NCBI RefSeq assembly: GCF_900155615.1
Contig: NZ_FUHT01000002.1
Span: 620,001-684,000, forward strand
DNA length: 64,000 nt
Direction of reading: 5' to 3'
Source of the DNA: Massiliimalia massiliensis
GTDB lineage: Bacteria > Bacillota > Clostridia > Oscillospirales > Ruminococcaceae
A program made the translations under genes and the position numbers. Positions 9,347-48,620 of this stretch are shown one piece after another; position 1 is the first letter of the stretch; each line of letters opens with the position of its first letter. The notes under the pieces are model-generated. The model saw only the letters and a list, made by a program, of their open reading frames with translations, made no database searches and was not told the origin of the DNA.

Positions 9347-9351
9347 CTCTT

Positions 9352-10917: not shown

Positions 10918-11144
10918 AAAAGCATTTTCCTCCTATTTTCAATTTTCAAGATACCCTTTTTCATCCATCTATACGATTCGTAAATCTAAGCATAAAATAC
11001 ATTATCAATAATATTGTATATTTTTTATCTGTTGATGTCAAGAAAAACTTATACAAAATCTCATATTCCGCTTGCACAGCCGGTCGGTTGGTTGTATAAT
11101 TGTACAAAGCTGAGGAAACAGCCCGTTTTTATCGCAAATTCCGG

Positions 11145-11174
11145 TTGACAAGCCGTCCTCGTTTATGTTATGAT
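11145..11174 (+). promoter_or_regulatory. Promoter of rpmG-secE-nusG operon
   Basis: TTGACA (11145-11150), 18-bp spacer, TATGAT (11169-11174). The leader of about 140 bases to rpmG (11180-11323) contains a poly-T stretch and no structure I recognise. The rest of 10918-11144 is non-coding and must hold the leftward rny promoter, which I cannot fix. Confidence 0.75.
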
Positions 11175-11323
11175 TAGTATTACCTCAAAGAAGGTCTATT
11201 TTTTTGTGCGCATTTTTAAAAAGATACTGCGGTCAGTCGACAGGATGCGTCCAAAGCAGGCCGGAAACCATTAACAGTCCTTGAGGGAGGCAAAAAAAAT
11301 CCGATTTAGCAGGAGGTGCCGAT

Positions 11324-11473
11324 ATGAGGGTTAAAGTTACATTAGCTTGCACAGAATGCAAACAGCGTAATTACAACACAATGAAAAACAAGAAAAACGA
11401 TCCTGACAGGCTCGAAATGAACAAATATTGTCGTTTCTGCAGGAAACACACTGCTCATAGGGAAACCAAGTAG
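11324..11473 (+). CDS. rpmG: 50S ribosomal protein L33
   Basis: 49 residues starting [20 protein letters not shown], with CTEC and CRFC pairs that bind zinc, so the C+ (zinc-ribbon) form. The ATG at 11324 follows AGGAGGTGCCGAT. First gene of the rpmG-secE-nusG operon, the standard order in Firmicutes. Confidence 0.96.
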
Positions 11474-34206: not shown

Positions 34207-35742
34207 ATGAACCATCAGCTTGTTCTGGTCTTGGATTTCGGCGGCCAGTATAATCAATTGATTGCAAGGCGTGTCCGTGAATGCAACGTTTATTGTGAAG
34301 TGAAGTCATATCAGACTCCGATCGATGAAATTAAAAAACTCAGTCCTGCTGGGATTATTTTTACCGGAGGCCCCAACAGCGTTTACCTGGAGGAGTCCCC
34401 TCATATTGATCCGGAAATTTTCCGTCTGGGTATTCCGGTGCTGGGAATTTGCTATGGCTGTCAGCTCATGGCCTATTCTTTGGGCGGAAGCGTTTCGTCT
34501 GCTAATACAACCAGCGAATATGGGAAAACCGTCACCTATTTCGACCGTTCCTGCCGGCTTTTTGACGGATTGCCGGATCAGGGCATTACCTGGATGAGTC
34601 ACACCGACTATATAGATAATCCGCCGGAAGGTTTCACCCTTGCGGCACATACGGATTCCTGCCCATCTGCAGCAATCTGCAATCCGGATAAAAGGCTTTA
34701 TGGATTACAGTTCCATCCCGAAGTGCTCCATACCGAAAACGGGCTTTCTATGCTCCGCAACTTCCTCTATCTGGTTTGCGGCTGCACCGGGGACTGGGAT
34801 ATGGGAAATTATGCCCAGACGGCTATCCAGGAAATCCGGGAAAAGGTTGGTGACGGAAAGATCCTGCTAGCCTTATCCGGCGGAGTAGATTCCTCTGTGC
34901 TTGCCGCCCTTCTCTCTAAAGCGGTCGGCAAGCAGCTCACCTGTATCTTCGTGGATCATGGCTTTATGCGGAAAAACGAAGGAGACGAAGTGGAGGCCGC
35001 CTTTGCAGATTGGGATGTAAACTTTATCCGTGTGAACGCAGCAGACCGTTTTCTATCAAAGCTTGTCGGTGTAGAAGAGCCGGAAACCAAGCGAAAGATC
35101 ATCGGGGAAGAGTTTATTCGCGTCTTTGAAGCAGAAGCCAAAAAGATAGGACAGGTCGATTATTTCGCGCAGGGCACCATCTATCCGGACGTGATTGAGT
35201 CCGGTGCAGGTGATGCGGCTGTAATCAAGAGCCACCACAATGTTGGAGGGCTGCCCGATTATGTAGACTTCAAGGAGATTATTGAGCCGCTGCGGTTATT
35301 ATTCAAAGACGAAACCAGGAAGCTTGGCATGGAACTGGGACTTCCCGACTACCTTGTTTGGCGGCAGCCATTCCCCGGCCCAGGCCTTGCAATCCGCATT
35401 ATCGGTGAGATCACCCGCGAGAAGCTCGCAATTTTGCAGGATGCGGACTTTATTTTCCGGGAGGAGATCGCCAAGGCTGGTCTTGACCGTGATATCCATC
35501 AATATTTTGCTGTTCTTACCTCTATGAAGAGCGTCGGCGTCATGGGCGACGGGAGAACATATGACTATACTCTGGCGTTGCGCGGCGTAACGACCACTGA
35601 CTTCATGACTGCTGATTTTGCACGGATTCCGTATGACCTGCTCGCTAAAATCTCCAGCAGAATTGTAAATGAAGTTAAGAATATCAACCGGATTGTATAT
35701 GATATTACTACAAAGCCGCCTGCTACGATTGAGTGGGAATAA
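34207..35742 (+). CDS. guaA: GMP synthase (glutamine-hydrolysing)
   Basis: 511 residues from the ATG at 34207 (GGAGG upstream; an ATG at 34189 lies within that site). Class I amidotransferase domain: [16 protein letters not shown] with the nucleophilic Cys, and [11 protein letters not shown] with His/Glu. ATP-PPase loop [20 protein letters not shown]-terminal dimerisation domain ends [18 protein letters not shown]. Converts XMP to GMP. Its 3' end (ATTGAGTGGGAATAA) is a known integration hotspot and an accessory element begins right after the stop. Confidence 0.97.
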
Positions 35743-36297: not shown

Positions 36298-36831
36298 TCA
36301 ATCATCTGTTTTTAGTTGGTCTTTGAATTGTTCTACCAAAGCGTCGCTCAATTCCTGTGACGGGACTTTCACCCATCGCTGTGTGGTATCGAATTTCGGA
36401 TAGTGGTAACGCCATTGGTCGTACTGTTCTCTGTCGATTTCATCAGCAGATAACTTGTCCGCCTGCTTTTTCCAAGCATAGAGCATTTTCAGCAATTCGG
36501 CAGCGTCCGTGCCTTTATCTTTGTTGACTTTCAGACAGACTTCGCCGTCTGTTTCGCTGACAGTCAGACCGTAAATATCCTCAAGGGTAAATAAGGTGTG
36601 CATAAGCCCGATGTAGTTGTCAATGTCGGGAATATCAAGAGCCTGCGGTGCAACATCGAGAGCCTGTGCTAATGCGGAAGTAAGCTCTGCCTTTGGTTTC
36701 CGTGTTCCCGTTTCATACTGTGCTAAACGAACATCAGCACTTCTTTCGGGGAAGCCGACAGCAGTACCGAGATACTTCTGTGTCATTCCACGCATAAGTC
36801 TGAAAAAATGTATTCTTTCGCCGATAGCCAT
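36298..36831 (-). CDS. XRE-family transcriptional regulator
   Basis: 177 residues. N-terminal HTH, residues about 5-60: IHFFRLMRGMTQKYLGTAVG, then RLAQYETGTRKPKAELTSAL. The C-terminal part (ELLKMLYAWKKQADKLSADE) is helical and not assigned. Divergent from the excisionase-integrase genes, so a likely controller of element excision. The 287-bp spacer holds several dyads and repeats that could be its operators. Confidence 0.88.
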   Translation of the reverse strand: MAIGERIHFFRLMRGMTQKYLGTAVGFPERSADVRLAQYETGTRKPKAELTSALAQALDVAPQALDIPDIDNYIGLMHTLFTLEDIYGLTVSETDGEVCLKVNKDKGTDAAELLKMLYAWKKQADKLSADEIDREQYDQWRYHYPKFDTTQRWVKVPSQELSDALVEQFKDQLKTDD

Positions 36832-37118
36832 AATGTTTCACTCCTTGTTTATGTATCTGCAAATAGTATAAGAACTTGTCAAGCATCGGGTAGTATTTTC
36901 TTTGAAAATCCCCACCCTTTCCTGCTTGACAAAACCTTGTACTGAATGCAATTTCATTCTGCATTCAGTATAGCAGATATGTTTAGGAAAAGTCAAGAGA
37001 AAATTAAACAAAAAAGTTTAATGTTTTCTTTGCAACCACTTGACACAAACAAAAATGCTTAGTATAATCAGAATACAAAATTAAACTATTATGCTTAGTA
37101 AAAAGAAAGGAGGATTGT
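36832..37118. promoter_or_regulatory. Divergent control region xre / xis
   Basis: Contains a perfect 11-bp inverted repeat TACTGAATGCA / TGCATTCAGTA (36940-36950, 36960-36970) and a perfect ATTAAAC / GTTTAAT repeat (37003-37009, 37016-37022). A 10-bp direct repeat ATGCTTAGTA occurs at 37055-37064 and 37091-37100. The rightward promoter is TTGACA (37040-37045), 17 bp, TATAAT (37063-37068); one direct-repeat copy overlaps its -10 box, so a protein bound there would block transcription of xis-int. Confidence 0.7.
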
Positions 37119-37307
37119 ATGGAAAACAAATTTATCCGTGCAGATGATGTGGCACGGGAGCTTGATGTATCAAAGCCTTATGCTTACAAACTTATTCGAC
37201 AATTAAATGAGGAATTGAAAGCAAAGGGTTTTGTTACTATTGCAGGGCGTGTAAACCGCCAGTATTTTTATGAAAGGCTCTACGGAGCAGGAAAGGAGAG
37301 TAAATAA
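37119..37307 (+). CDS. xis: Excisionase-like HTH protein
   Basis: 62 residues, winged HTH of the excisionase type: FIRADDVARELDVSKPYAYK then LIRQLNEELKAKGFVTIAGR. AAAGGAGG ribosome site. It overlaps the integrase start by one base, the usual xis-int coupling in Tn916-like and related elements, where Xis directs Int to excise. Confidence 0.85.
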   Translation: MENKFIRADDVARELDVSKPYAYKLIRQLNEELKAKGFVTIAGRVNRQYFYERLYGAGKESK

Positions 37308-38386
37308 TGCCAGTATTCAAGAATGAGGACAATGGAACTTGGTATGTAATGGCTCGCTATGTGAATTGGAAAGGCGAACGCAAGCAGAAATGCAAGCGTG
37401 GATTTGCCACAAAGAAAGAAGCACAGGAATGGGAGCGAATGTTTCAGTTGCAGACTTCTTCCGACCTTGATATGAGTTTTGAAGCCTTTACAGAACTGTA
37501 TATCAAGGATGTGAAAAATCGTCTGAAAGAAAACACTTGGCTGACAAAGGAGCATATCATTCGCACGAAGATACTGCCCTTTTTTGGCAAGTTGAAAATC
37601 AGTGAGATTTCCACAAAGGAGATTATCACTTGGCAAAATGAGATGCTTGCCTATCGTGATGATAAGAAAAAGCCGTATTCACAGACCTATCTGAAAACGT
37701 TGCATAATCAATTATCAGCTATCTTCAATCACGCTGTACGCTATTATGAACTGCGTTCCAATCCTGCAGCAAAGGTGGGGAATATGGGGAGTGAGGAACA
37801 CAAGGAAATGAAATTCTGGACAAAAGAAGAATACAAAAAGTTTGCTTTCGAGATGATGGATAAACCAGTATCTTTTTATGCTTTTGAAATGCTCTACTGG
37901 TGCGGCATTCGTGAGGGTGAGTTATTGGCTCTGACCGCCGCCGATTTCAATTTTGATAAGGAAATGGTCACGATTAATAAATCTTATCAACGTTTGCACG
38001 GCGAAGATGTAATTACCACGCCGAAAACAAAAAAGAGTAATCGTACCATTAAAATGCCGAAATTTCTCTGTGAGGAAATGCAGGAATATCTCGGTATGCT
38101 TTACGGCTTGAAAAAGAAAGACCGTATCTTTACAGTAACGAAAAGCTATCTTCATCACGAGATGGACAGAGGGGCAAAAGCCGCAGGAGTGAAGCGTATT
38201 CGTATTCACGATTTAAGGCATAGTCACATTAGTTTGCTGATTGATATGGGATTTTCTGCGGTAGCGATTGCAGACCGTGTAGGACACGAAAGTATTGAAA
38301 TCACTTATCAGTACGCTCACCTGTTTCCGTCGAAGCAGACGGAAATGGCAAATAAATTAGATGACTTGGGGAAAGGAGATTGTTAA
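37307..38386 (+). CDS. int: Tyrosine recombinase (integrase), Tn916/phage type
   Basis: 359 residues. The N-terminal arm-binding domain (NGTWYVMARYVNWKGERKQK) is of the AP2-like type, then a SAM-like core-binding domain (residues about 55-155) and the catalytic domain. Catalytic residues: R202 in CGIREGELLAL, K near 240 in TPKTKKSNRT, H301-x-x-R304 in IHDLRHSHISLL, H327 in GHESI and nucleophile Y336 in TYQYAHLF. Starts at the last base of xis. Intact, so the element may still be mobile. Confidence 0.95.
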   Translation: MPVFKNEDNGTWYVMARYVNWKGERKQKCKRGFATKKEAQEWERMFQLQTSSDLDMSFEAFTELYIKDVKNRLKENTWLTKEHIIRTKILPFFGKLKISEISTKEIITWQNEMLAYRDDKKKPYSQTYLKTLHNQLSAIFNHAVRYYELRSNPAAKVGNMGSEEHKEMKFWTKEEYKKFAFEMMDKPVSFYAFEMLYWCGIREGELLALTAADFNFDKEMVTINKSYQRLHGEDVITTPKTKKSNRTIKMPKFLCEEMQEYLGMLYGLKKKDRIFTVTKSYLHHEMDRGAKAAGVKRIRIHDLRHSHISLLIDMGFSAVAIADRVGHESIEITYQYAHLFPSKQTEMANKLDDLGKGDC

Positions 38387-38387
38387 A

Positions 38388-38723
38388 ATGTCAGCGAAAA
38401 ACAGAGATGGTAAAAACAGATGGAGAAATATCACAGTAGGGTTTCGGGTATCGCCCGAAGAAAATGAACTCATTAATAAAGCAGTAGCATTATCAGGACT
38501 GCCGAAGCAGGAATACTGTTACCGCCGCTGTTTAAATCAAGATGTGGTAGTACAGGGGAATCCGAGAGTATATAAGGCTCTTAAAACAGAACTTGTGGCT
38601 GTTCTTACAGAGTTACAGAGGATTGAAGCAGGAAATGGTGTAGATGAGGAATTGCTTAATGTGATTGAACTGATTGCCGTTATCCTCGGAGGAATGAAAG
38701 GAGATGGGGAGAATGGAGAATAA
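38388..38723 (+). CDS. MobC-like relaxosome accessory protein
   Basis: 111 residues from the ATG at 38388 (AAAGGAG eight bases upstream; an earlier ATG inside int is rejected). Ribbon-helix-helix start ITVGFRVSPEENELINKAVA followed by LSGLPKQEYCYRRCL, then a helical MobC-like region. Helps the relaxase find or open oriT. Overlaps the next small gene. Confidence 0.85.
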   Translation: MSAKNRDGKNRWRNITVGFRVSPEENELINKAVALSGLPKQEYCYRRCLNQDVVVQGNPRVYKALKTELVAVLTELQRIEAGNGVDEELLNVIELIAVILGGMKGDGENGE

Positions 38724-38862
38724 AAAAGAAATGACCACTCCGAATGTATCTGCGGCAACAGATACGGAGCAGTCACTTTCTAAATGTACTGACAATAGTA
38801 TAACCCAAAAAACCGTGAACTTCAATACTTTCAGCGAAAAAGGCGGTGGTTATAATGGCTAA
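38713..38862 (+). CDS. Small hypothetical protein of the mobilization module
   Basis: 49 residues, MENKKEMTTPNVSAATDTEQ onward, ending EKGGGYNG. Polar with no domain. It overlaps the end of the MobC gene by 11 bases and the start of the ATPase gene by 8, and has GGAG upstream of its ATG, so it looks translationally coupled between the two. It may be a coupling leader for the ATPase gene and not a functional protein. Confidence 0.55.
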   Translation: MENKKEMTTPNVSAATDTEQSLSKCTDNSITQKTVNFNTFSEKGGGYNG

Positions 38863-39829
38863 ACTTAAAATTTTGAATATGGACGAAATACCTGCTACCG
38901 AAGTCGAATGGCTTTGGTATCCGTATATCCCTTATGGAAAGATAACCATTGTTCACGGCGATCCCGGCGACGGAAAAACAATGATGATTTTACAGTTAGC
39001 TTCTATCCTATCAAGGGGCGACAAATTGCCCTGTGATGATACGGAGCGTGAGCCGATAAAGATTATTTACCAAACAGCAGAGGACGGACTTAGCGACACA
39101 ATTAAACCTCGTCTGCTTACGGGCAATGCTGATTGTACGCAAATAAAAGTAATCGATGAATCGGAAGCGGCACTTTCAATGCTTGATGAAAGAGTGGAGC
39201 GGGCAATTATTGAAACAGGCGCAAAGATAATCATTTTAGACCCTGTGCAAGCATATATCGGCGCAAAAATTGATATGAACAGAGCAAACGAAGTTCGCAA
39301 TGTTCTTTCACAGTTAGGTCGAGTAGCAGAAAAGCACGAGTGTGCCGTTATCCTTGTCGGACACTTAAATAAAGTACAAGGCGGCAAAGCAAATTACAGA
39401 GGTCTTGGCTCAATCGACTTTCAGGCAACGGCACGAAGTGTACTCATTGTCGGCAGGCTCAAGGAAAACAAGGAAGTGCGAGTAGTTGCACACGAAAAAT
39501 CTTCTCTTGCACCTGAAGGCAAGCCTATCGCTTTTGAACTGAATAAAGAAACAGGATTTGTGTGGAAAGGTCATTATGATATTTCTATCGACGATTTATT
39601 GAACGGCGTTAGTCGTGAAAAGAAATCCGAACAAGCAGAGAATTTAATAATGGATTGTCTGTCAAACGGAAAATGTCTTCAGCAGAGTGTATTGAAAAAA
39701 GCACAGAATTTTGGTATCTCAAAAAGAGTGCTTGATGAAGCGAAAAAATCTCTCGGTGTTAAGTCGACAAAGGAAGGCAGCGGATGGTATTGGGAACTTC
39801 CCGAAGAAAAAGAAACAAGCAACTTTTAA
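38855..39829 (+). CDS. RepA-like AAA ATPase (RecA/DnaB fold)
   Basis: 324 residues from the ATG at 38855. Walker A VHGDPGDGKTMMILQLASIL; Walker B IIILDPVQAYIGAKIDMNR; then VILVGHLNKVQGGKANYRG typical of the RepA/hexameric helicase group found on plasmids and integrative elements. The C-terminal winged helix (SEQAENLIMDCLSNGKCLQQ) is present. Probably a replicative helicase of the element during mobilization. Confidence 0.88.
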   Translation: MAKLKILNMDEIPATEVEWLWYPYIPYGKITIVHGDPGDGKTMMILQLASILSRGDKLPCDDTEREPIKIIYQTAEDGLSDTIKPRLLTGNADCTQIKVIDESEAALSMLDERVERAIIETGAKIIILDPVQAYIGAKIDMNRANEVRNVLSQLGRVAEKHECAVILVGHLNKVQGGKANYRGLGSIDFQATARSVLIVGRLKENKEVRVVAHEKSSLAPEGKPIAFELNKETGFVWKGHYDISIDDLLNGVSREKKSEQAENLIMDCLSNGKCLQQSVLKKAQNFGISKRVLDEAKKSLGVKSTKEGSGWYWELPEEKETSNF

Positions 39830-39836
39830 GGTTGCA

Positions 39837-40065
39837 ACATTGCAAAGGTGCGGAACAAGTGCAATCTTGCAATGTTCTTTTTCGGTGGGTAGTGAGCGAT
39901 ATGAAAGTTTAGCGGAGTGTGCAGAGAGTGCCTTTTCAAAGGCGGCTCTTTGCCCTTCGGAGAACGCAAAACCTGCGAAGAATGGCTTGCCATTCTTAAC
40001 AGGTCTGCATTTTTGATAGGCTTGCCTGTCAAAAGTGCTTTTGCGTTACTTTCGCAGAAAGTAAC
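39837..40065. other. Candidate oriT region with four hairpins
   Basis: Between the ATPase and relaxase genes. It holds a terminator-like stem ACATTGCAA / TTGCAATGT (39837-39875) followed by TCTTTTT. Next come AAGAATGG-CTTG-CCATTCTT (39978-39997), TTTTGATAGG / CCTGTCAAAA (40011-40034, one mismatch) and GTTACTTTC-GCA-GAAAGTAAC (40045-40065). Clustered dyads just before a MOBV relaxase are typical of an origin of transfer; the nick site is not identified. Confidence 0.5.
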
Positions 40066-40113
40066 AAAGGCTCGCCGCAAGCGGCGGAATGGAAAGGAAG
40101 TGATTTTATCCAA

Positions 40114-41277
40114 CGGACGATTAGTGCAATGGTCGGGAAAGGCTCGGTCAATCACAACAGCCGTAAATTCAAAGCGGAGAATGTGAACGCTGACCGTTCC
40201 CACCTCAATATAGATTATTGCAACGAGAGTATTAAGAACGTTTATCACGAATTATTTGATGAAGCACTTGAAAGGTACAACGGCAAGCAAACAAGAGCAG
40301 ACCGAAAGATAGCAGATTATTATGAAAAAATCAGAAGCTCCAAACAGGAAAAGCCATTTCACGAATTGATTTTGCAGATTGGAGATAAGGAAAATATGAG
40401 TGCGGAAAGCGAAAACGGACAGCTTGCGAGGCAGATTTTAGATGAGTATTATCGTGGCTTTAAAGAGAAAAATCCGCACCTTAGAGTGTTTTCTGCTCAT
40501 CTGCATTTGGACGAAGCAACACCACATCTGCACATTGATTTTATACCGTTTACAACAGGCAGTAAGCGTGGTCTTGATACAAGAGTATCGCTGAAACAGG
40601 CTCTCGCTGCACAGGGATTTAAGGGCGGCAGCCGTGGCGATACGGAGTGGTCACAATGGGTACAATCCGAAAAAGAGCAGCTTGCTTGTGTTATGGAACG
40701 GTACGGTATTGAGTGGGAGCAGAAAGGCACACACGAAAAACACTTATCTGTTTTGGATTATAAAAAGCAGGAACGAGCAGCGGAAATTCAGCAATTAGAA
40801 AGTAAAATTGAGAAAAAACAGACGGAGTTTGATGTACTATCAAAGCGTATCGAAAACTTTGATAAAGGGGCAGATTCACTCTTGCAAATGCAAGAAGCAT
40901 TGGATGATGCTCCTGAGTACCAACTGCCAGAGCCACAAGGTTTTATGACGGCAAAAAATTACAAGAGTAAAATAGTCGAGCCGTTATTTAAGAAGTTGAA
41001 ATCTCTTGTCAAAACATTTATGGTAAGGTGCTTTCAGGCGGTTGATGATTACCAAAGGCTTAATCAGGCAAACGCAAGTCTGTATAGAAGTAATGAACGG
41101 CTAAAAGAACAAAATAAGCAGTTGACAGCCGATAATAATCGTTTGCGGGAGGAAATTAAGGATTATAAGCTGTTACGGAAAGCTTTTGGAAATTGGCAGA
41201 TTGACAGGCTGTTAGAACAGGCAAGGCAGTCTAAACAGCGTGGTACACGCTTTAGAAATAAAGAAAATGAAAGGTAG
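40114..41277 (+). CDS. MOBV-family relaxase (plasmid recombination/mobilization protein)
   Basis: About 387 residues. Motif I region GKGSVNHNSRKFKAENV, and the metal-binding motif VFSAHLHLDEATPHLHIDFI (H-x-H-x-D-E...H-x-H) define MOBV. The C-terminal half is coiled coil (NERLKEQNKQLTADNNRLRE). The first ATG is at 40129, but homologous sequence begins about 5 codons earlier (QRTISAMVGKGSV), after AAAGGAAGTGA, with no ATG/GTG/TTG; the true start may be an ATC near 40114 and is uncertain. Nicks oriT and pilots the strand in trans-mobilization. Confidence 0.88.
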   Translation, partial: RTISAMVGKGSVNHNSRKFKAENVNADRSHLNIDYCNESIKNVYHELFDEALERYNGKQTRADRKIADYYEKIRSSKQEKPFHELILQIGDKENMSAESENGQLARQILDEYYRGFKEKNPHLRVFSAHLHLDEATPHLHIDFIPFTTGSKRGLDTRVSLKQALAAQGFKGGSRGDTEWSQWVQSEKEQLACVMERYGIEWEQKGTHEKHLSVLDYKKQERAAEIQQLESKIEKKQTEFDVLSKRIENFDKGADSLLQMQEALDDAPEYQLPEPQGFMTAKNYKSKIVEPLFKKLKSLVKTFMVRCFQAVDDYQRLNQANASLYRSNERLKEQNKQLTADNNRLREEIKDYKLLRKAFGNWQIDRLLEQARQSKQRGTRFRNKENER

Positions 41278-41286
41278 GAAAACAAA

Positions 41287-41661
41287 ATGACAAAGACAAT
41301 TTTTGAAGAAATGGGCGGCACTTATGTACGGCGAGGGGATTATCTTATCCCCTGCCTTACCTTACCCGCCGAAAAAGAAACAGTTATCGGTGTTTGGGGG
41401 CAGAGGCACAAACGTTATCTGCGAGAGCATAAAAAGGCAACCTATACTACTCTGCTGACAAGCGGTAATTTAAACAGCTATCTTGTCAATATTGATGAGC
41501 AGGCACAAGAAATGTTTTCACGGTTGGTGGAGCAGATGGCAGAGTGTGAGGGTGTAACGGAACAACTTAAAGCAACCGACCAAATGGCGTGGATTGGAGC
41601 AATGAATAATATTCGGGGTAGAGCAGAAGAAGTCATTTATACCAATCTCATTTACAGTTAA
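41287..41661 (+). CDS. TnpV-like transposon protein
   Basis: 124 residues, recognised by MGGTYVRRGDYLIPCLTLPA and the KRYLREHKKATYTTLLTSGN stretch shared with TnpV of Tn4451-type elements. Function unknown. 9 bases after the relaxase gene, AAAGGTAGG-like ribosome site. Followed by a terminator. Confidence 0.85.
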   Translation: MTKTIFEEMGGTYVRRGDYLIPCLTLPAEKETVIGVWGQRHKRYLREHKKATYTTLLTSGNLNSYLVNIDEQAQEMFSRLVEQMAECEGVTEQLKATDQMAWIGAMNNIRGRAEEVIYTNLIYS

Positions 41662-41701
41662 AAAACGGCGGGTATCCAATAACGGATACTCGCCATTTTT
41701 T
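41661..41701. terminator. Terminator between convergent tnpV and hxlR
   Basis: Stem GGCGGGTATCC / GGATACTCGCC (41667-41677 / 41684-41694) flanked by A-run and T-run; works in both directions. Confidence 0.88.
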
Positions 41702-42035
41702 AACCTAATGAAGCCTTATATTCCTCGCCCCAATTCCACATTGAATCAAGAATTGGTTTCAGACTTTCTCCAAGTTCTGTCAAGGTATATTCCACTCTCG
41801 GAGGCACCTCGGCATATACCGTCCGGGTTAACAGACCGCTTTCTTCCATTGCCCGAAGCTGTGCAGTCAGTACCTTTTGAGATACATTGCCGACTGATTT
41901 TTTTAATTCTCCAAATCTTTTTGTTCCTGTAAGCAGGTCACGCAAAATTAAAACTTTCCATTTATCGCCGATTAAAGTTAAAGTCGTTTCCACAGGACAA
42001 GCGGGTAATTCTTTTGCTGTTTTTTGTGTACTCAT
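41700..42035 (-). CDS. HxlR-family transcriptional regulator
   Basis: 111 residues; winged HTH with CPVETTLTLIGDKWKVLILR, RFGELKKSVGNVSQKVLTAQ and LRAMEESGLLTRTVYAEVPP. The Cys at the family N-terminal position is a redox or electrophile sensor in several HxlR proteins. Divergent from the redox/ADP-ribosylation cassette and presumably its regulator. GGAGGTGAGCAA ribosome site. Confidence 0.93.
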   Translation of the reverse strand: MSTQKTAKELPACPVETTLTLIGDKWKVLILRDLLTGTKRFGELKKSVGNVSQKVLTAQLRAMEESGLLTRTVYAEVPPRVEYTLTELGESLKPILDSMWNWGEEYKASLG

Positions 42036-42051
42036 TTGCTCACCTCCGATT

Positions 42052-42236
42052 AGTTTCTATTTGAAACTTTACATATAATTATACCATACAGCCTTAAAGC
42101 AATCAATATTTCAGTTTGAAATCAAGGGAAATAAAAAATTTTTCAAAAATTTTTTTGCTATATAAAATCGCCCTAAAGACTGAAACTACGCATTTGTTTC
42201 CTTTGGGTAACTATCCAATTGTTACCTTGCGGTAAC
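42052..42236. promoter_or_regulatory. Divergent hxlR / cassette control region
   Basis: Dyad AGTTTC-TATTT-GAAACT (42052-42068) sits between the hxlR -10-like TATAAT (minus strand) and its ribosome site, and TTTCAGTTTGAAA lies at about 42110-42122. Toward the cassette there are three GGTAAC/GTTACC half-sites, including the perfect dyad GTTACC-TTGC-GGTAAC (42221-42236). These fit dimeric repressor sites for autoregulation and cassette control. The rest of 42036-42352 shows no gene. Confidence 0.55.
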
Positions 42237-42352
42237 AACGCCACAATATTGTGCGTACTTTACGGCTGAAACGGACGCTCATATAATATAGTCAAGAGCT
42301 ACGGAGGACGGCCGCTCCAAGGCTCGAGCAAATCCAAAAGGAGAAATCCATT

Positions 42353-43045
42353 ATGAACATTTTAAAAAGAATTTTTGGCAATAGCCAAACAAATTTTAAG
42401 GAGGAAAACAAAATGAAAATCACAATTGTATGCGCAGCAGGTAAGCAGGGTTCTAAGTTGGTGCAGGAGGCTCTTTCCAGAGGTCACGAGGTCACCGCTG
42501 TTGTACGCCCAACCGACAAGGCTCCCGCAGGAGCAAAGGTCATCACCAAGGATCTATTTGATTTGACCTTAAACGATCTGAAAGACAGCGATGTTGTTAT
42601 TGATGCGTTCGGTGCGTGGACGGAAGACACTCTTCCTCAGCACAGCACTTCCCTCAAGCACCTGTGCGACATTCTCTCCGGCACAAATATCCGCTTATTG
42701 GTTGTCGGTGGTGCAGGCAGTTTGTATATCAATCCTGAGCACACCGCCTGTGTATCTGACGGCCCGGATTTCCCGGATATCTTCAAGCCTCTCGCAGCTG
42801 CAATGGCTAAAGCGTTGAGTGAGCTACGCCAGCGCAATGATATCAAGTGGACATATTTAAGCCCTGCCGGAGATTTTCAGGCCGAGGGTGTTCGCACCGG
42901 AAAGTACATTCTGGGCGGCGAAGAACTGACGCTCAATTCCAAAGGTGAAAGTGTTATCAGTTATGCGGACTATGCTATCGCTATGATTGACGAAGCAGAA
43001 AACGGCAACCATATTCAGCAGCGCTTCAGCGTTGTCAGTGAATAA
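42353..43045 (+). CDS. NAD(P)-binding oxidoreductase (NmrA/YwnB-like)
   Basis: Rossmann protein. There are two in-frame ATGs with good ribosome sites: 42353 (AAAAGGAGAAATCC) and 42413 (AAGGAGGAAAACAAA). The family normally begins at the second (MKITIVCAAGKQGSKLVQEA, 210 residues), so the first 20 codons may be a leader or extension. Glycine motif AAGKQGS, then LLVVGGAGSLYINPEH and YLSPAGDFQAEGVRTGKYIL. Members are quinone- or flavin-type reductases or NADP sensors. First gene of the cassette. Confidence 0.88.
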   Translation: MNILKRIFGNSQTNFKEENKMKITIVCAAGKQGSKLVQEALSRGHEVTAVVRPTDKAPAGAKVITKDLFDLTLNDLKDSDVVIDAFGAWTEDTLPQHSTSLKHLCDILSGTNIRLLVVGGAGSLYINPEHTACVSDGPDFPDIFKPLAAAMAKALSELRQRNDIKWTYLSPAGDFQAEGVRTGKYILGGEELTLNSKGESVISYADYAIAMIDEAENGNHIQQRFSVVSE

Positions 43046-43068
43046 AATGTATGAAGGAGATGACCGTT

Positions 43069-43860
43069 GTGAATAAAAACACTTTTACAACCGTAAAACT
43101 CGCAAAAGGCGAAATGAATATTTACGATTTCGGCAGCATTAAGCTGCACGCATACAAGACCAACGATTTCATTGATGATGAAGTTTTTATTGTTGAAAAA
43201 GACGGTAGAGCCGTTATCATTGAATCCCCTTGCTTTTTTGACAACAACAGAGAGCTTGCAGAATATCTGAAAGATGTTGAGGTTGAGGGTATGCTCATTG
43301 CTTACCACGGTGCAGGCGCTACCTTCCTGCCGGAAGTTCCGAAATATGCAACGCAAAATGCTGCGGACTACTCGACAAACGGAGGCGGTAAAGCACTGGT
43401 AGCGAATTTTACAAACGCCTTCGGGGAGACTTTCGATAACTCTATTCATAAGATTACCCAAGTCATTGGAGAGGGTCAGGTGACAATCGGCGGCATTGAT
43501 TTTGTAATCAAGCAGACCGCAGAAGCGTTTGACATTGCAATTCCCGAAATTAACGCCGTTTACACCCATATGCTCGGACATGACTGTCACTCCATTGTTG
43601 CAGGTGCAAACCACGCTGACGGAATCATTGCAGAACTGAGCAGCTATATTGAAAAGGGTTACGATCTGATTCTGACCTCGCACTATACGCCGGAGGATTT
43701 GAAAGACGCACAAACCAAAATCGACTATCTTGAAAACTTGAAAAAGATTGCGGCGAATTGTGCGGATTCCGACAGCTTCAAGGCAGAAGTACAGAAACAG
43801 TACCCTGCATACAGCGGTCAGAACTATCTCGATATGACGGCAGGATTTTTCTTCGCTTAA
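43069..43860 (+). CDS. MBL-fold-like protein, metal motif degenerate
   Basis: 263 residues from a GTG at 43069 with GAAGGAG nine bases upstream. Beta-lactamase-fold layout: VFIVEKDGRAVIIESPCFFD, then a loop with a single His (IAYHGAGATFLPE) where H-x-H-x-D-H is expected, then VYTHMLGHDCHSIV and LTSHYTPEDLKD. It may bind one metal or flavin, or be inactive. Lies 23 bases after the NmrA-like gene in the HxlR-controlled cassette. Confidence 0.75.
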   Translation: MNKNTFTTVKLAKGEMNIYDFGSIKLHAYKTNDFIDDEVFIVEKDGRAVIIESPCFFDNNRELAEYLKDVEVEGMLIAYHGAGATFLPEVPKYATQNAADYSTNGGGKALVANFTNAFGETFDNSIHKITQVIGEGQVTIGGIDFVIKQTAEAFDIAIPEINAVYTHMLGHDCHSIVAGANHADGIIAELSSYIEKGYDLILTSHYTPEDLKDAQTKIDYLENLKKIAANCADSDSFKAEVQKQYPAYSGQNYLDMTAGFFFA

Positions 43861-43920
43861 TATGGTGGCGGGGCTGTCAATATGGCAGCCCCGTTCTACT
43901 TGAAAAAGAGGTACACGAAA

Positions 43921-44544
43921 GTGAATACAAACGAAATCTTATATTTTTTAGAACAACAAATACATTCGGTTATTATGGCGACCGTTGATGACAGCGGGCT
44001 ACCCGTTACCTGTGCGATTGACATAATGGATAGTGACGAAAAAGGGTTATATTTTCTAACGGCAAAGGGAAAAGGATTTTATAACCGCTTAAAGAAAAAC
44101 GGATATGCTTCATTAACAGGTATAAAAGGCAACGATACGCTGTCCTGTGTAGCGATTTCTGTTTGTGGCAAAGTGCAGGAAATGGGAAATGCACCTCTGC
44201 AAAGGCTTTTTATAAAAAATCCATATGTGAAAGAAATCTATCCAACCAAAGAGTCCAGGCAGGCACTTACTGTCTTTCGGCTTTATGAGGGAAGCGGCGA
44301 ATGGTTTGACCTTTCAAAGAAACCGATTGAACGGGTTTCGTTTACGATTGGAAATCAAGAAAAGGAAATGCAGGGATATGAAATCACGGACAAATGCACG
44401 GGCTGTAAATCCTGTAAGGTAGCCTGTCCACAAAACTGCATTGATTTTACCGTTACCCCTGCTGCTATAAAACAGGAAAATTGTTTGCATTGCGGCAACT
44501 GTTTAAGAGTTTGTCCTCAAAAAGCAGTTGTTCGGAGAGGATAG
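43921..44544 (+). CDS. PNPOx-like flavoprotein fused to 2x[4Fe-4S] ferredoxin
   Basis: 207 residues from the GTG at 43921 (AAAGAGG upstream); an upstream in-frame ATG at 43882 is possible. The N-terminal split-barrel flavin domain (IHSVIMATVDDSGLPVTCAI) covers about residues 8-135. The C-terminal ferredoxin domain has CTGCKSCKVACPQNCID and CLHCGNCLRVCPQKAV, two full cluster motifs. Likely an electron carrier/oxidoreductase using FMN and Fe-S clusters; substrate unknown. Confidence 0.88.
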   Translation: MNTNEILYFLEQQIHSVIMATVDDSGLPVTCAIDIMDSDEKGLYFLTAKGKGFYNRLKKNGYASLTGIKGNDTLSCVAISVCGKVQEMGNAPLQRLFIKNPYVKEIYPTKESRQALTVFRLYEGSGEWFDLSKKPIERVSFTIGNQEKEMQGYEITDKCTGCKSCKVACPQNCIDFTVTPAAIKQENCLHCGNCLRVCPQKAVVRRG

Positions 44545-44548
44545 AAAA

Positions 44549-45328
44549 ATGTCACAAACCGAAAAAAGAAAATATTTAATAGCGGCGCTCCTAAAAGAAC
44601 AGCCGCAGTATTCTAAAATAGAAATTCCGTCGAGTGAACAGGAACAAAAAATTCTGCTTCGTTCGCTTTTTAATATCCGTATGCCCTTGCCTGTAACCGA
44701 TGAATTTTTGACGATACAGGATACCTACTTACAGGAAGAAGTACGGCAAAAAGGAATTACAAGTGTTGCCGATTTGCAACCGCTTCAGCCGGGAGTGTAT
44801 CTGTGGCAAGGTGACATTACCACGCTGAAATGCGATGCTATTGTAAATGCCGCCAACAGTAGGCTGCTTGGCTGCTTCTGTCCCAATCACGGGTGTATTG
44901 ATAATGCGATTCATACCTTTGCAGGGGTGCAGCTTCGGTTGGCTTGTGCAGAACTTATGAAGAAACAAGGTCACGAAGAAGAAACCGGTAAAGCGAAAAT
45001 CACGCTCGCCTACAATCTGCCTTGTCGGTATATTCTGCATACAGTCGGCCCGATTATTCGAGGTCGCTTAACACAGCGGGATTGTGATTTGCTTGCTTCC
45101 TGCTATCGTTCTTGTTTGGAATTAGCCGAGCAAAACAGATTAAACAGTATTGCGTTCTGCTGTATCTCTACAGGTGAGTTCCATTTTTCAAATGATAAAG
45201 CAGCAAAAATTGCGAATCAAGCAGTAAAGGAGTATAAAGAACGAACTCACAGCAAAATTGAGGTGATATTCAATGTTTTTAAGGAACTGGATTACAACAT
45301 CTATCGGAAGCTACTCCGAGCAGATTGA
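44549..45328 (+). CDS. Zinc macrodomain protein-ADP-ribose hydrolase (SirTM-linked)
   Basis: 259 residues. An N-terminal helical region of about 75 residues, then the macrodomain: QGDITTLKCDAIVNAANSRL and the zinc triad C109, H114, C116 in LLGCFCPNHGCIDNAIHTFA. The later ISTGEFHFSNDKAAKI phosphate loop is clear. Zn-macrodomains of this type remove ADP-ribose placed by SirTM sirtuins. It precedes and overlaps the sirtuin gene by 56 bases, indicating coupled synthesis. Confidence 0.93.
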   Translation: MSQTEKRKYLIAALLKEQPQYSKIEIPSSEQEQKILLRSLFNIRMPLPVTDEFLTIQDTYLQEEVRQKGITSVADLQPLQPGVYLWQGDITTLKCDAIVNAANSRLLGCFCPNHGCIDNAIHTFAGVQLRLACAELMKKQGHEEETGKAKITLAYNLPCRYILHTVGPIIRGRLTQRDCDLLASCYRSCLELAEQNRLNSIAFCCISTGEFHFSNDKAAKIANQAVKEYKERTHSKIEVIFNVFKELDYNIYRKLLRAD

Positions 45329-46142
45329 CAGGCTGAAAAATGAAATAGATAACGCCGACGCTATTGTGATCGGCGCAGGTGCGGGAATGTCAACCTCGGC
45401 GGGATTTGCTTATGACGGGGAGCGCTTTGAAAGAAACTTTGCTGATTTTCGTAAAAAATATGGCATTACCGATATGTATTCGGGCGGTTTTTATCCGTAC
45501 AACTCTCTGGAAGAATATTGGGCATGGTGGTCAAAACACATCTATATCAACCGTTATGATATAGATGTAGGTCGGCCCTACACAGAGTTGTTAGAACTCG
45601 TCAAAGACAAGGACTATTTTGTGTTAACCACAAATGTAGACCATCAATTTCAGCTTGCAGGCTTTGATAAGAAACGGCTTTTTTATACACAGGGCGATTA
45701 TGGTTTATGGCAATGCTCCAAAGCCTGCCACGACAAGACCTATGATAACGAGGAAACAGTACGACAAATGGTGGCAGAGCAAAAGGATTTGAAAATTCCG
45801 TCAGAATTGATTCCGAAATGCCCTGTTTGCGGCGCACCTATGACAATGAATTTGCGGTGCGATAACTCCTTTGTACAGGATAAAGGTTGGTATATGGCGG
45901 CAAATCGCTATGAGGACTTTATCAGACAGCATAACGGTATGCACATTTTATTTTTGGAACTCGGCGTGGGAGCAAATACGCCTGTCATCATAAAATATCC
46001 ATTTTGGCAAATGACTGCACAGAATAGACACGCAACTTATGCCTGCATTAACTACGGCGAGGCGGCAGCACCGAGAGAAATTGCAAAGCAAGCAATTTGC
46101 ATTAACTCGGATATTTCTGCGGTATTAAAAGATTTGGGATAA
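45273..46142 (+). CDS. SirTM-type sirtuin (protein ADP-ribosyltransferase)
   Basis: 289 residues; GAGGTGA ribosome site seven bases before the ATG. NAD loop IVIGAGAGMSTSAG (residues 32-45); FYPYNSLEEYWAWWSKHIYI; VLTTNVDHQFQLAG with the conserved N121; and YTQGDYGLWQCSKACH in which Gln140 replaces the deacetylase His, as in SirTM enzymes that mono-ADP-ribosylate proteins. Zinc Cys: C148, C152, C183, C186. No GcvH-L or LplA2 target gene lies nearby, unlike known SirTM operons. Confidence 0.93.
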   Translation: MFLRNWITTSIGSYSEQIDRLKNEIDNADAIVIGAGAGMSTSAGFAYDGERFERNFADFRKKYGITDMYSGGFYPYNSLEEYWAWWSKHIYINRYDIDVGRPYTELLELVKDKDYFVLTTNVDHQFQLAGFDKKRLFYTQGDYGLWQCSKACHDKTYDNEETVRQMVAEQKDLKIPSELIPKCPVCGAPMTMNLRCDNSFVQDKGWYMAANRYEDFIRQHNGMHILFLELGVGANTPVIIKYPFWQMTAQNRHATYACINYGEAAAPREIAKQAICINSDISAVLKDLG

Positions 46143-46153
46143 GAGGATATACT

Positions 46154-46330
46154 ATGAACATTAAAACAGAATGGATACTTTGCCCTGTTTGCGGCAGAAA
46201 AACACACGATAAAATCAGAGAAGACACCGAAATGAAAAACTTCCCTCTTTACTGCCCAAAGTGCAAGCAGGAAACGCTTATTGATGTAAAGAGCTTTATT
46301 GTTAATTTCTGCAAAGACGAAAGCAAATAA
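46154..46330 (+). CDS. Cysteine-rich KTR protein (zinc ribbon)
   Basis: 58 residues, MNIKTEWILCPVCGRKTHDK onward, with CPVC and CPKC pairs forming a zinc ribbon and the GRKTHDKIREDT segment of the KTR family. Common near the ends of conjugative and mobilizable elements in gut Firmicutes; function unknown. 11 bases after the sirtuin gene. Confidence 0.85.
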   Translation: MNIKTEWILCPVCGRKTHDKIREDTEMKNFPLYCPKCKQETLIDVKSFIVNFCKDESK

Positions 46331-46702
46331 TTACACCATACGGCTTGATTTTCTAAGCAAAATCGCTTATAATTTGAACCGAAACATATTGCTATTATCT
46401 ACAGTGATATGACTGATGTTATCAATGCCGATAACAAAATGATAACATTAGCCCATATAGGCAGGATAATATGGATATATCAAATAATCAAAAGAACTAC
46501 ATACACGACAGAGAATAATCACTAAACAAAATTGATTAGGCTTTGTCGAGTTTGAATAGAAGGCATATTTGACTTCGCATTTTAAAATAAAAAGAAATCC
46601 TCCGTATTGCAAAGTGCGGATGGTTTTGTTATACTTTCAGTGTATATATGAGATTACGCGAAGATACAGACAGCCGTATGTAAGAAGTCAATGGGAGAAT
46701 CT
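46331..46702. other. Non-coding spacer with TGATAACA repeats, possible right end of the element
   Basis: No credible gene. TGTTATCA (inverted, 46417-46424), GATAACAA (46430-46437) and TGATAACA (46440-46447) resemble the TTTGATAACA pair at 35800-35820. A 15-codon ORF (MDISNNQKNYIHDRE) at about 46471 may be a fragment. A promoter-like TTGTTATAC lies near 46628. Confidence 0.4.
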
Positions 46703-47182
46703 ATGGCAGAAATAACAACAGATATTGTTCGCAGACTAATCGAGACACAGTTTCCCGCATGGAGCGGATTGGAAATTCGTCCTGTGGCAAAGAGCGGACA
46801 CGATAATCGAACGTTTCATTTAGGGAGTACGATGACGGTACGCCTGCCGAGCGGTAAGGATTATGTGCCGCAGGTTGAAAAGGGGGTTCAGTGGCTTCCG
46901 TATTTAGCAAAGCATCTATCCCTGCCGATTTCAAAATCGCTTGCAATGGGACATCCGAATGATGCTTATCCCTTTGTTTGGTCGGTCAACAGCTACATAG
47001 AGGGCGAAACAACGAATGAGTAAAATGTTGCAGACAAAGCGAGCTTTGCGTCAGAACTAGCACTATTTTTGAAGGATCTTCAAAGCACAGATACAAATAA
47101 AACGGTTTCTGAAAACGCAAAGCACACTTTAAAGGAAATCATTGCTGAATATGATAAAGATATTGAAAGGCAGATAGAATGA
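46703..47182 (+). pseudogene. Aminoglycoside phosphotransferase-family remnant
   Basis: The N-terminal lobe is recognisable (IRPVAKSGHDNRTFHLGSTM, then MTVRLPSGKDYVPQVEKG and VWSVNSYIEGETTNE). A TAA at 47021-47023 interrupts it. The same frame then continues FASELALFLKDLQSTDTN and jumps to a C-terminal-like NAKHTLKEIIAEYDKDIERQ, so the catalytic HGD..N loop is deleted. Intact relatives are near 290 residues. It cannot phosphorylate drugs in this state. Its stop overlaps the start of the GNAT gene. Confidence 0.8.
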
Positions 47183-47763
47183 ACACACCGACACTTGAAA
47201 CAGAACGTTTAATTTTGAGACGATTTACAGAAGATGATTTGGAAGCTCTTTTTCTAATTCTTAAAGATGAGGAAGTTAATAAATTCCTGCCTTGGTATCC
47301 TATGAAGAACCTTGAGGAAACCAAAAAATTTTATGAGGAAAGATATGCCGTAAAGTATGCGCAGCCGCAAGCGTATGTCTATGCTATTTGTCTTAAAAGC
47401 GATCATTATCCTATTGGCTATATTAAGGTTGAAATGGAAGACCACCACGATTTTGGCTATGGACTCCGCAAGGAATTTTGGCATCAGGGAATTGTTACTG
47501 AGGCAGGCAAGGCTGTTGTCGAACAGGTGAAAAAAGACGGATTGCCATATATCACCGCGACGCACGACAGAAACAATCCGCGAAGCGGAAACGTTATGCA
47601 GAAAGTCGGTATGAAATACTGCTATTCCTATGAGGAACAATGGCAGCCAAAAGACTTTCCCGTTGTTTTTAGAATGTATCAACTGAATTTTGACGGAAAT
47701 GATGATTTTGTATATAAAAAGTATTTGAACATGTACGACAATCATTTTGTTGAGGAATTGTAA
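47179..47763 (+). CDS. GNAT acetyltransferase (RimJ/RimL-like)
   Basis: 194 residues. Begins with the RimL-type ETERLILRRFTEDDLEALF; DFGYGLRKEFWHQGIVTEAG is motif A for acetyl-CoA binding; NPRSGNVMQKVGMKYCYSYE follows. The C-terminal extension after residue 165 is unusual. Overlaps the APH remnant (ATGA), so the pair may derive from an older operon. Substrate unknown; could modify an antibiotic or a protein N-terminus. Confidence 0.88.
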   Translation: MNTPTLETERLILRRFTEDDLEALFLILKDEEVNKFLPWYPMKNLEETKKFYEERYAVKYAQPQAYVYAICLKSDHYPIGYIKVEMEDHHDFGYGLRKEFWHQGIVTEAGKAVVEQVKKDGLPYITATHDRNNPRSGNVMQKVGMKYCYSYEEQWQPKDFPVVFRMYQLNFDGNDDFVYKKYLNMYDNHFVEEL

Positions 47764-47780
47764 TTTTATAAGGAGAAAAC

Positions 47781-48620
47781 ATGGTTTTCAAGGTAGCGAT
47801 TTTGCAAATAAACGCAGTTAAAAAAAATCTGGTTAAAAATACGCAAACCGTTATTTGTATGATGCAGGAAGCAGCAAAGTTAAATGCTGATATTCTTCTG
47901 CTTCCCGAGTGCTTTATTACAAGCTATACACTGCCAATTACGAATAAAGAGGCATTGGCTGACAATGATCCAAGCATTGCTGCGATCTGTAACGCAGCTA
48001 AAAGCTTTCGCATTGGCGTCGTTGCGACTGCATTTACAAAAGGCGATGGTAAGCCACAAAACTCCGCCTTTGTTATAGACAAAAATGGTGAGATTTTGAT
48101 GAAATATTCAAAAGTTCACACCTGTGACTTTTCTGCTGAACGGTGCCTTCAAAGCGGTACAGAATTTAAGACCTGCAGTTTTGACGGCATCAAGCTAGGT
48201 GTTATGATTTGCTATGATAGGGAATATCCGGAAAGCGCAAGAATTCTTATGCTCAAGGGTGCGGAGCTCATTCTTGTACCTAACGATTGCGATACCATGA
48301 AGCCGCGCCTTCAGGCTCTTTCCACCAGAGCATATGAAAATATGGTGGGAATTGCTATGGCAAATCCTAACCGCGAAAATGCTGGTTGTTCCTGTGCTTT
48401 CAGTCCCATCTGTTGGGATGCTCATGGCAAAAGTATCGATAATACACTTTTCATGGCGGACGAACTATCAGAGGGATTGTTTTTTGCTGATTTTAATATG
48501 GATGAAATTCGCAGATATCGTAAAGAAGAAATGATGGGAAATACATTCAGAAAAGTGAACGCCTATCAAAAATTAATTGATAACGAAATTCGTTTTCCAT
48601 TTATTCGAGATGGACAATAA
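47781..48620 (+). CDS. Carbon-nitrogen hydrolase (nitrilase superfamily)
   Basis: 279 residues with the intact Glu-Lys-Cys triad: ILLLPECFITSY, MKYSKVHTCDF and LGVMICYDREYPESARI. The branch (amidase, omega-amidase, carbamoylputrescine hydrolase) cannot be fixed. AAGGAGAAAAC ribosome site, 17 bases after the GNAT gene; followed by a strong terminator that closes the accessory region. Confidence 0.9.
   Translation: MVFKVAILQINAVKKNLVKNTQTVICMMQEAAKLNADILLLPECFITSYTLPITNKEALADNDPSIAAICNAAKSFRIGVVATAFTKGDGKPQNSAFVIDKNGEILMKYSKVHTCDFSAERCLQSGTEFKTCSFDGIKLGVMICYDREYPESARILMLKGAELILVPNDCDTMKPRLQALSTRAYENMVGIAMANPNRENAGCSCAFSPICWDAHGKSIDNTLFMADELSEGLFFADFNMDEIRRYRKEEMMGNTFRKVNAYQKLIDNEIRFPFIRDGQ

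Follow-up and report, generated by a model that had tools for sequence, protein, structure and literature searches.

A redox cassette with a divergent regulator gene, ending in a macrodomain and a sirtuin

The window, as we call the whole stretch of DNA analysed here, is 64,000 nucleotides long and comes from Massiliimalia massiliensis (contig NZ_FUHT01000002.1, positions 620,001 to 684,000 of the forward strand); coordinates are counted from its first letter. It contains a cassette of five genes on the forward strand with a divergent HxlR-family regulator in front, and the last two genes of the cassette encode a zinc macrodomain (Zn-Macro) and a SirTM-type class M sirtuin. An earlier sequence-only reading of this locus had named all six genes, and profile or structure matches confirmed each of them at or beside the place it had given. 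We interpret the cassette as a thiol-sensed quinone or electrophile-stress operon, carried as cargo of a mobile element, that would use lipoate-independent reversible ADP-ribosylation of some target, and we consider this reading reasonably probable.

The first cassette gene (42353-43045) encodes an NmrA-like NAD(P)H oxidoreductase of the YwnB type, with an NAD_binding_10 match of 59.1 bits and an alternative start at 42413. Its best solved match, 4r01 (228.6 bits, E 7e-67), is the pneumococcal YwnB, described in PMC9218516 as an NAD(P)H quinone reductase controlled by SifR, a quinone sensor of the Rrf2 family, and the cassette protein is predicted to be a quinone reductase too. The stretch 42353-42412 forms a 20-codon in-frame leader, MNILKRIFGNSQTNFKEENK, before the inner NmrA start, with a ribosome-site-like sequence of its own. 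Leaders of this kind precede other genes in two further loci (L102 and L056) and bear a faint likeness to the start of some of the ACGX peptides described below.

The second gene (43051-43860) was assigned to the MBL fold from a predicted model and an alignment; it matches no Pfam or NCBIfam family. The model (mean predicted local distance difference test score 72.5) gave its best VIA Z of 12.1, with a root mean square deviation of 4.2 over 213 aligned residues, to 8d2z, an MBL-superfamily fold; Foldseek TM-scores were low in the first rows (0.2-0.5). The metal motif HxHxDH is degenerate, as had been noticed before: the window protein has HGAGAT in its place, and HGAG stands at that position in all 14 aligned sequences. 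The third gene (43882-44544) encodes a fusion of a PNPOx domain (PNPOx_N, 35.5 bits) with a 2x[4Fe-4S] ferredoxin (4Fe-4S families), here called PNPOx-Fd. Its eight cluster cysteines are invariant in 20 aligned sequences, out of 57 listed plus the window.

The zinc macrodomain gene (44549-45328, ATG at 44549) matches the NCBIfam model NF003163, 'protein-ADP-ribose hydrolase', with 374.9 bits at a cutoff of 272, as well as the solved Zn-Macros 5kiv, 8rsl and 8rsi (E 1.7e-79 or better), and is predicted to encode an ADP-ribosyl hydrolase. The zinc ligands C109, H114 and C116, numbered from this ATG, were correctly read from the sequence before, and the stretch around them aligns with 5kiv and 8rsi. 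The SirTM gene (45273-46142), a predicted ADP-ribosyltransferase, has no Pfam match and only weak NCBIfam Sir2 matches, and hits the solved SirTM 5a3a with 260.5 bits (E 1.7e-76). Gln140 stands in place of the catalytic His, in a QG motif with Gly141, again as previously read, and Gln140, Asn121 and Cys148/152/183/186 are invariant in 10 aligned sequences. The tight arrangement of the cassette was likewise borne out, with gaps of 5 bp between NmrA and MBL, 21 bp between MBL and PNPOx-Fd and 4 bp between PNPOx-Fd and the macrodomain gene, which overlaps the SirTM gene by 56 bp.

Class M sirtuins and Zn-Macros have been described before, as have pairs of the two without GcvH-L (Rack 2015; Ariza 2024; PMC4518038, PMC11490716). 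The view that the pair normally sits with GcvH-L and LplA2 was therefore too strict, since pairs without GcvH-L are not abnormal. Lipoylated GcvH-L is given as the only known SirTM substrate (PMC11490716); it is a small redox carrier from the same operon (PMC4518038). MorMacro, the Zn-Macro of a lone pair that was tested, leaves the GcvH-L modification in place (PMC11490716). For the pair in the window we predict that SirTM marks a target and that the Zn-Macro clears the mark.

The HxlR regulator and a predicted operator

The HxlR gene (41700-42035, reverse strand; PF01638, 118.9 bits) falls just outside the locus as first delimited, which starts at 42036. Its product carries an N-terminal cysteine, C13, in the motif ACPVE. 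After one of 62 HxlR rows had been set aside for a stop, 61 rows remained in the alignment, the window among them; 60 of these have the cysteine, and the other has a gap there. The motif around it reads CPVE in 34 and CPVA in 14 of the 62 rows. We suggest that this HxlR may sense quinones or other electrophiles through the thiol of its N-terminal cysteine. Formaldehyde was considered as a signal and rejected: the formaldehyde-sensing HxlR uses Cys11 and Lys13 (C-x-K; PMC7835342), and the window protein has C-P-V, without the lysine.

Between HxlR and the cassette lies a perfect GTTAC-N6-GTAAC site, GTTACCTTGCGGTAAC (42221-42236, unstranded), which we predict to be an operator. With up to one mismatch allowed, 40 of 61 HxlR loci have the pattern no more than 300 bp from the start of HxlR, and its density is 2.95 per kb near HxlR versus 0.0137 per kb elsewhere. 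The signal is strong for a spacer of 6; a spacer of 5 gives a weak excess (4 loci), and spacers of 4, 7 and 8 give none. The first gene behind the site is PNPOx in 10 loci, MBL and NmrA in 8 each, radical SAM in 7, the macrodomain in 4, a SnoaL-like gene in 2 and an FMN reductase in 1, and the site is absent from both loci that start with DUF1848 and from the sole locus that starts with SirTM. The conserved cysteine of HxlR and the operator-like site that precedes the cassette agree with the control by one regulator that the sequence-only reading had claimed.

Redox genes recur upstream of SirTM

We compared the cassette with other SirTM loci. Removing 9 duplicates from 143 loci (the window, 60 loci from genomes of the family, 80 from named genome contigs and 2 from viral contigs) left 134 non-redundant loci; the 80 named-contig loci are the best 80 of at least 585. 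Upstream neighbours were counted in the 99 loci with at least 4.5 kb on that side and downstream neighbours in the 93 loci with at least 5.4 kb. The 'CUPIN' profile, apparently contaminated by an HxlR antisense frame, was excluded from every count.

Most of the neighbour families are found repeatedly on the upstream side of SirTM and are rare downstream, an association beyond chance. The macrodomain, which overlaps SirTM in the window, is found upstream in 91 loci versus 2 downstream, HxlR in 46 versus 3 and Rrf2 in 17 versus 0, so that one or other regulator is upstream in 62 of the 99 loci. PNPOx-Fd is the commonest enzyme partner (54 versus 2; 58 of the 102 rows of the SirTM tree), often directly ahead of the macrodomain, followed by NmrA (19 versus 0), radical SAM (15 versus 0), MBL (11 versus 0), nitroreductase (11 versus 1), DUF1848 (5 versus 2), a quinone-reductase-like ADH (4 versus 0) and a SnoaL-like family (4 versus 0). 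The recurring unit is thus an HxlR or Rrf2 regulator with variable redox enzymes, a macrodomain and SirTM. A conserved unit of exactly these five genes, as had been proposed, is not what the 134 loci contain: the full gene order of the window is found elsewhere only in one congener (genome G228; locus L040, on the same contig as L100), where HxlR is cut by the contig end.

Where Rrf2 takes the place of HxlR, a cysteine in a CPVG motif is present in 12 of 12 rows. SifR, the quinone sensor of the Rrf2 family whose regulon includes YwnB, is described with a single conserved cysteine (PMC9218516). Plasmids from Roseburia, Enterococcus casseliflavus and Treponema saccharophilum carry similar partner families too. 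The order on the E. casseliflavus plasmid is Rrf2, SDR, macrodomain, SirTM, PNPOx and NUDIX, and on the T. saccharophilum plasmid it is an NAD(P)H-binding protein, PNPOx, Rrf2, a gene in the SirTM position and the macrodomain. Among the upstream genes left unnamed by the profiles (81 of the 104 listed were scanned), 88 Pfam families were matched, and the 25 of them that were listed include five ECF transporters, four PNPOx proteins, three cupins, two aldo/keto reductases and two flavodoxins.

The SirTM tree has 102 rows, and 55 of its 99 inner branches are poorly supported; its starred branches force 6 to 9 changes of partner. Taken jointly, the partner labels cluster more strongly than in each of 200 shuffles. 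The clustering of single labels is weak, with values as low in 27 of 500 shuffles for NmrA, 42 of 500 for MBL and 82 of 500 for radical SAM. Distance correlations of SirTM with the macrodomain, PNPOx-Fd, HxlR, NmrA, MBL, radical SAM and nitroreductase range from r 0.37 to 0.62 and do not discriminate between the partners. In open-licence PMC papers we found nothing on SirTM or a macrodomain together with HxlR, and no account matching the HxlR, Rrf2 or ACGX setting of the SirTM pair. What appears to be new here is the setting around the pair; the pair without GcvH-L was already known.

More distant SirTM-like genes, with about 30-39% identity to that of the window, stand in tandem triplets in locus L094 (about 8700-11367) and in genomes G127, G317, G137, G207, G236, G305 and G261. 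In the L094 triplet the aligned copy keeps the Gln motif, Rrf2 lies upstream on the opposite strand and no macrodomain was detected, so the arrangement differs from that of the cassette. Matches to SirTM also occur in 12 plasmid records of Lactiplantibacillus or Levilactobacillus. On one Levilactobacillus brevis plasmid (L218) a distant SirTM-like gene is followed by an annotated cupin, with transposase genes upstream and no macrodomain annotated nearby.

The ACGX radical-SAM and peptide partners

One representative radical-SAM partner belongs to TIGR04340 (596 bits), and one representative small Cys-repeat protein before it belongs to TIGR04341, an ACGX-type peptide. Seventeen SirTM loci match radical SAM strongly, and each of them has such a peptide upstream (in L075 it is cut by the contig end). 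Across 396 genomes of the family there are 29 TIGR04340 copies over the cutoff, 16 of which have SirTM within 8 kb, and one further copy (L203) has a macrodomain and a SirTM fragment at the contig end. In the 13 regions around the uncounted copies, L203 included, HxlR was found in 11 and an ACGX peptide in 12. The Roseburia plasmid carries a helix-turn-helix protein, acgA, acgM, a nitroreductase, a 4Fe-4S protein, the macrodomain, SirTM and DUF1848, in this order.

In the genome of the window, the candidate for an ACGX enzyme was rejected: two stretches of a 470-amino-acid frame reach at best 25.5 bits, at a TIGR04340 cutoff of 400. Open-licence PMC papers gave no hit for ACGX in this sense, and our analysis supplies a genomic context for this uncharacterised peptide system. 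In one locus (L113), about 884 bp ahead of the SirTM start, the start of a radical-SAM gene runs in frame into the ferredoxin end of PNPOx-Fd; the ACGX peptide still lies upstream, and the fusion looks like a deletion remnant.

The known lipoyl substrate is absent from the genome

No GcvH was found in the genome of the window (2.84 Mb, 99.75% complete), and neither LplA2 nor GcvH-L is encoded in the cassette. The two PF03099 matches of the genome are biotin ligases (TIGR00121, 164 and 172.6 bits at a cutoff of 83.1), and its three Biotin_lipoyl matches are BCCP and an efflux adaptor, both over the cutoff, and a protein of the biotin carrier/decarboxylase gamma type under the cutoff. A GcvH-L/LplA2 pair elsewhere in the genome, which the sequence-only reading had named as the finding that would overturn its claim of a different target, was looked for and not found. 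With no GcvH in the genome, the lipoyl carrier described in pathogens is excluded as the modified protein, and any target must therefore differ from lipoylated GcvH-L.

SirTM relatives, called at E 1e-20 with fragments and distant tandem copies counted, are present in 107 of the 396 family genomes, and in 20 genomes of a sample of 398 from the phylum, counting the genome of the window and one further family member. We counted GcvH only above 70 bits (the Pfam cutoff is 22.2 bits); among the matches listed, this gives 42 of the 396 genomes, or, when cross-tabulated, 6 of the 107 genomes with SirTM versus 36 of the 289 others. In five of these six genomes the two genes are on separate draft contigs, so that their distance is undefined, and in one they are 640 kb apart. 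Looser cuts raise the number of genomes, among the matches listed, to 105 of 396 at 22.2 bits and 160 of 396 at E 0.001; of the weak matches in genomes with SirTM, 13 were inspected, and every one of these open frames reads as a biotin carrier, with a biotin-type E-A/S-M-K-M/L attachment site. SirTM relatives are thus common in a family where the known type of substrate is mostly absent.

The cassette as cargo of a mobilizable element

The cassette is exchangeable cargo of an integrative mobilizable element at the 3' end of guaA, spanning about 35.73-46.56 kb, and the mobilizable element proposed from the sequence is real. All of its features given here are on the forward strand. The left junction, attL, is formed by the last guaA codons (GATTGAGTGGGAATAA, 35727-35742; guaA ends at 35742). 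It is followed by a tyrosine integrase (37307-38386; XerA/XerC-type models, all under the cutoff), a NikA-like mobilization accessory protein (38361-38723; PF21983, 46.8 bits), a RepA/KaiC-like AAA ATPase (38846-39829; PF13481, 92.9 bits), a MobV-type relaxase (40129-41277; NF041497, 54.4 bits, under the cutoff of 100) and TnpV (41287-41661; PF14198, 158 bits), the final backbone gene ahead of the cargo slot. The right junction (46545-46559) is an attR-like sequence, GTCGAGTTTGAATAG, an imperfect copy of attL. Homologues of the relaxase are found in 378 plasmid records, all below 60% identity, of which 337 are typed as mobilizable.

A congener (G161) has a sibling element beside guaA; a perfect 12-bp direct repeat, TCGAGTGGGAAT, marks both its guaA end and its right end. 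The DNA of this element is 78% identical to the window over 37102-39963 and 88% over the right end (46417-46557), and its cargo slot is occupied by an EcoRV-like restriction system, a nuclease of the EcoRV family with a D12 methyltransferase. The link of SirTM loci to this particular element is not general, as homologues of its mobility genes were found, within the available flanks, in 11 of the 134 loci, window included. A plasmid megablast search with 36300-47800 gave no match. SirTM relatives occur in 34 plasmid records, 33 of them below 60% identity and 25 covering at least 80% of the query.

A Cys-rich KTR small protein (46154-46330; PF14205, 91.7 bits) starts 11 bp after SirTM, outside the cassette. 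Since similar stretches occur elsewhere in the same genome (77%) and in G161 (74%), the gene is probably a passenger of the mobile element. Just right of the element, a short frame (46691-47023) matches only the first third of the APH family and resembles a truncated gene.

A proposed stress operon and its alternatives

In the mechanism that we propose, the HxlR repressor would keep the divergent promoter off through the GTTAC-N6-GTAAC operator until its N-terminal cysteine is alkylated or oxidised by quinones, related electrophiles or oxidants, upon which HxlR would leave the DNA. The YwnB-type NmrA protein would then reduce the quinone, and PNPOx-Fd would carry electrons within the same chemistry. 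SirTM may mono-ADP-ribosylate a target protein and the Zn-Macro strip the mark, giving a reversible on/off switch under stress, analogous to that of GcvH-L in staphylococci and streptococci, minus lipoate. A quinone or electrophile signal is suggested because two unrelated regulator families with a conserved cysteine, of which one includes a known quinone sensor, are found together with a quinone-reductase homologue. The target would be either a core host protein or, in cassettes that encode one, a carrier-like redox protein; the candidates are PNPOx-Fd (the commonest and the first to consider), the ACGX peptide where present and a host protein. The setting thus narrows the substrate question to a short list and offers a likely class of inducers and a testable operator.

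Several observations weigh against this proposal. The loci are the closest relatives by SirTM score and not a random sample, and the neighbour profiles were derived from the same loci. Neither HxlR nor Rrf2 is present in 37 of the 99 upstream loci, and 13 of the 99 have the macrodomain and SirTM alone by the profiles used. Two families show the reverse direction, flavodoxin (0 upstream versus 4 downstream) and FMN reductase (3 versus 5). The pair is not always last, with PNPOx, NUDIX or DUF1848 genes after it on plasmids, and its order can be reversed (Treponema), a macrodomain match lying directly behind SirTM in 3 of the 134 loci. At up to one mismatch the operator is missing in 21 of 61 HxlR loci, and the genome of the window holds two perfect sites, equal to the control with the reversed pattern, so that no additional member of the regulon was found. 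Two more cysteines are conserved in the Rrf2 partners (11 of 12 rows each). HxlR relatives respond to various electrophiles and oxidants, and the exact signal cannot be read from sequence alone. Partners also change often on the SirTM tree (16 changes for 20 rows for NmrA, 13 changes for 15 rows for radical SAM and, in the group table, 10 changes for 12 rows for MBL), so that no single partner is needed. Because these changes are frequent, we regard the pair as a module that joins up with varying redox enzymes, and the free exchange of partners speaks against a single fixed substrate within the cassette.

A special case of the proposed operon is that the pair acts on a carrier of the cassette that replaces lipoylated GcvH-L, with ADP-ribosylation gating its redox role; the carrier would be PNPOx-Fd where present and the ACGX Cys-repeat peptide in the radical-SAM versions. 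The frequency and position of PNPOx-Fd, the constant presence of the ACGX peptide in radical-SAM loci and the likeness to the known substrate, itself a small redox carrier from the same operon, are in its favour. Many loci have neither carrier, however, ACGX cassettes are also found without SirTM in reach, the genome of the window has no TIGR04340 protein over the cutoff, and SirTM distances correlate no better with PNPOx-Fd (r 0.46) than with HxlR (0.43) or the macrodomain (0.57). We regard this special case as rather doubtful. The locus may instead hold an ordinary SirTM/Zn-Macro pair whose neighbours are merely co-regulated stress genes that share a promoter, with no biochemical link. Known pairs without GcvH-L (PMC4518038, PMC11490716), the free exchange of partners and the loci with the pair alone would fit this. 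By itself, however, this explanation does not say why similar redox families keep appearing beside the pair across Clostridia, Bacilli and Spirochaetes, and co-regulation is functional information in its own right; we consider this explanation possible but not probable.

Macrodomains serve as antitoxins in DarTG, and on a mobile element SirTM might act as a toxin with the macrodomain as its antidote, in anti-phage defence or a toxin-antitoxin-like role. The sequence-only reading had suggested that the cassette may be a stress or defence-like module; for defence, the nuclease and methylase in the cargo slot of the sibling element are the only positive evidence. PADLOC gave no match for five of the six proteins, SirTM and the macrodomain among them, and its sole match is a 17-bit hit of the ferredoxin region of PNPOx-Fd to BrxP. 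The regulator and the enzymes are of the redox-regulon type, few loci carry the mobility genes of this element, and phage or viral relatives are scarce (two viral contigs and three phage records, one of which covers at least 80% of the query). Defence is therefore unlikely, and markedly so compared with the alternatives above. The least probable explanation, to which we give hardly any weight, is that SirTM acts, like that of the extended operon, on a lipoylated GcvH-L whose gene lies elsewhere in the genome. It has in its favour that this is the only SirTM substrate known, but for the genome of the window it is already refuted, short of an outside source of the protein or an assembly gap that hides its gene; the ligase-fold matches are biotin-type, and MorMacro is inactive on GcvH-L (PMC11490716).

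Taken as a whole, the sequence-only reading is partly supported: the regulator, the mobility and a target other than GcvH-L stand, and the abnormal pair, the fixed set of five genes and the defence role are not supported in the form given. Going further, reversible ADP-ribosylation might be a general output of thiol-based quinone and electrophile sensing in gut Clostridia. The pair would then be a module that can be exchanged within HxlR and Rrf2 regulons, would switch a lipoate-free redox carrier (PNPOx-Fd or the ACGX Cys peptide after modification by radical SAM) or an enzyme of the host, and would form a second, lipoate-independent branch of SirTM signalling. This wider idea is tentative, and we would sooner doubt than assert it.

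Comparison with known systems

The SifR/YwnB quinone regulon of S. pneumoniae (PMC9218516) shares the YwnB-type NmrA gene with the cassette. As listed in the abstract, it includes neither SirTM nor a macrodomain, and the window has HxlR, not Rrf2. The Rrf2 versions of the cassette carry the CPVG cysteine, a candidate counterpart of C102 of SifR, and unlike SifR these Rrf2 partners have two extra conserved cysteines. The ACGX system often comes with an HxlR, an operator-like site, a nitroreductase and a PNPOx-Fd like those of the cassettes studied here, whereas TIGR04340 does not exceed its cutoff in the genome of the window.

The extended SirTM operon of S. aureus and S. pyogenes, with GcvH-L, LplA2, OYE and LLM (PMC4518038, PMC11490716), resembles the cassette in its adjacent macrodomain and SirTM genes with the key motifs and in the oxidoreductase genes nearby; oxidative stress has been proposed there, and we propose redox stress here. 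Unlike the extended operon, the cassette has no GcvH-L or lipoate ligase in the operon or the genome, has other oxidoreductases, comes with an HxlR gene and an operator-like site and lies on a mobilizable element. The lone SirTM/Zn-Macro pairs of the minimal operon also occur without GcvH-L, and no substrate of theirs is known (PMC11490716). In contrast to these lone pairs, the pair in the window closes a multi-gene redox set with its own regulator.

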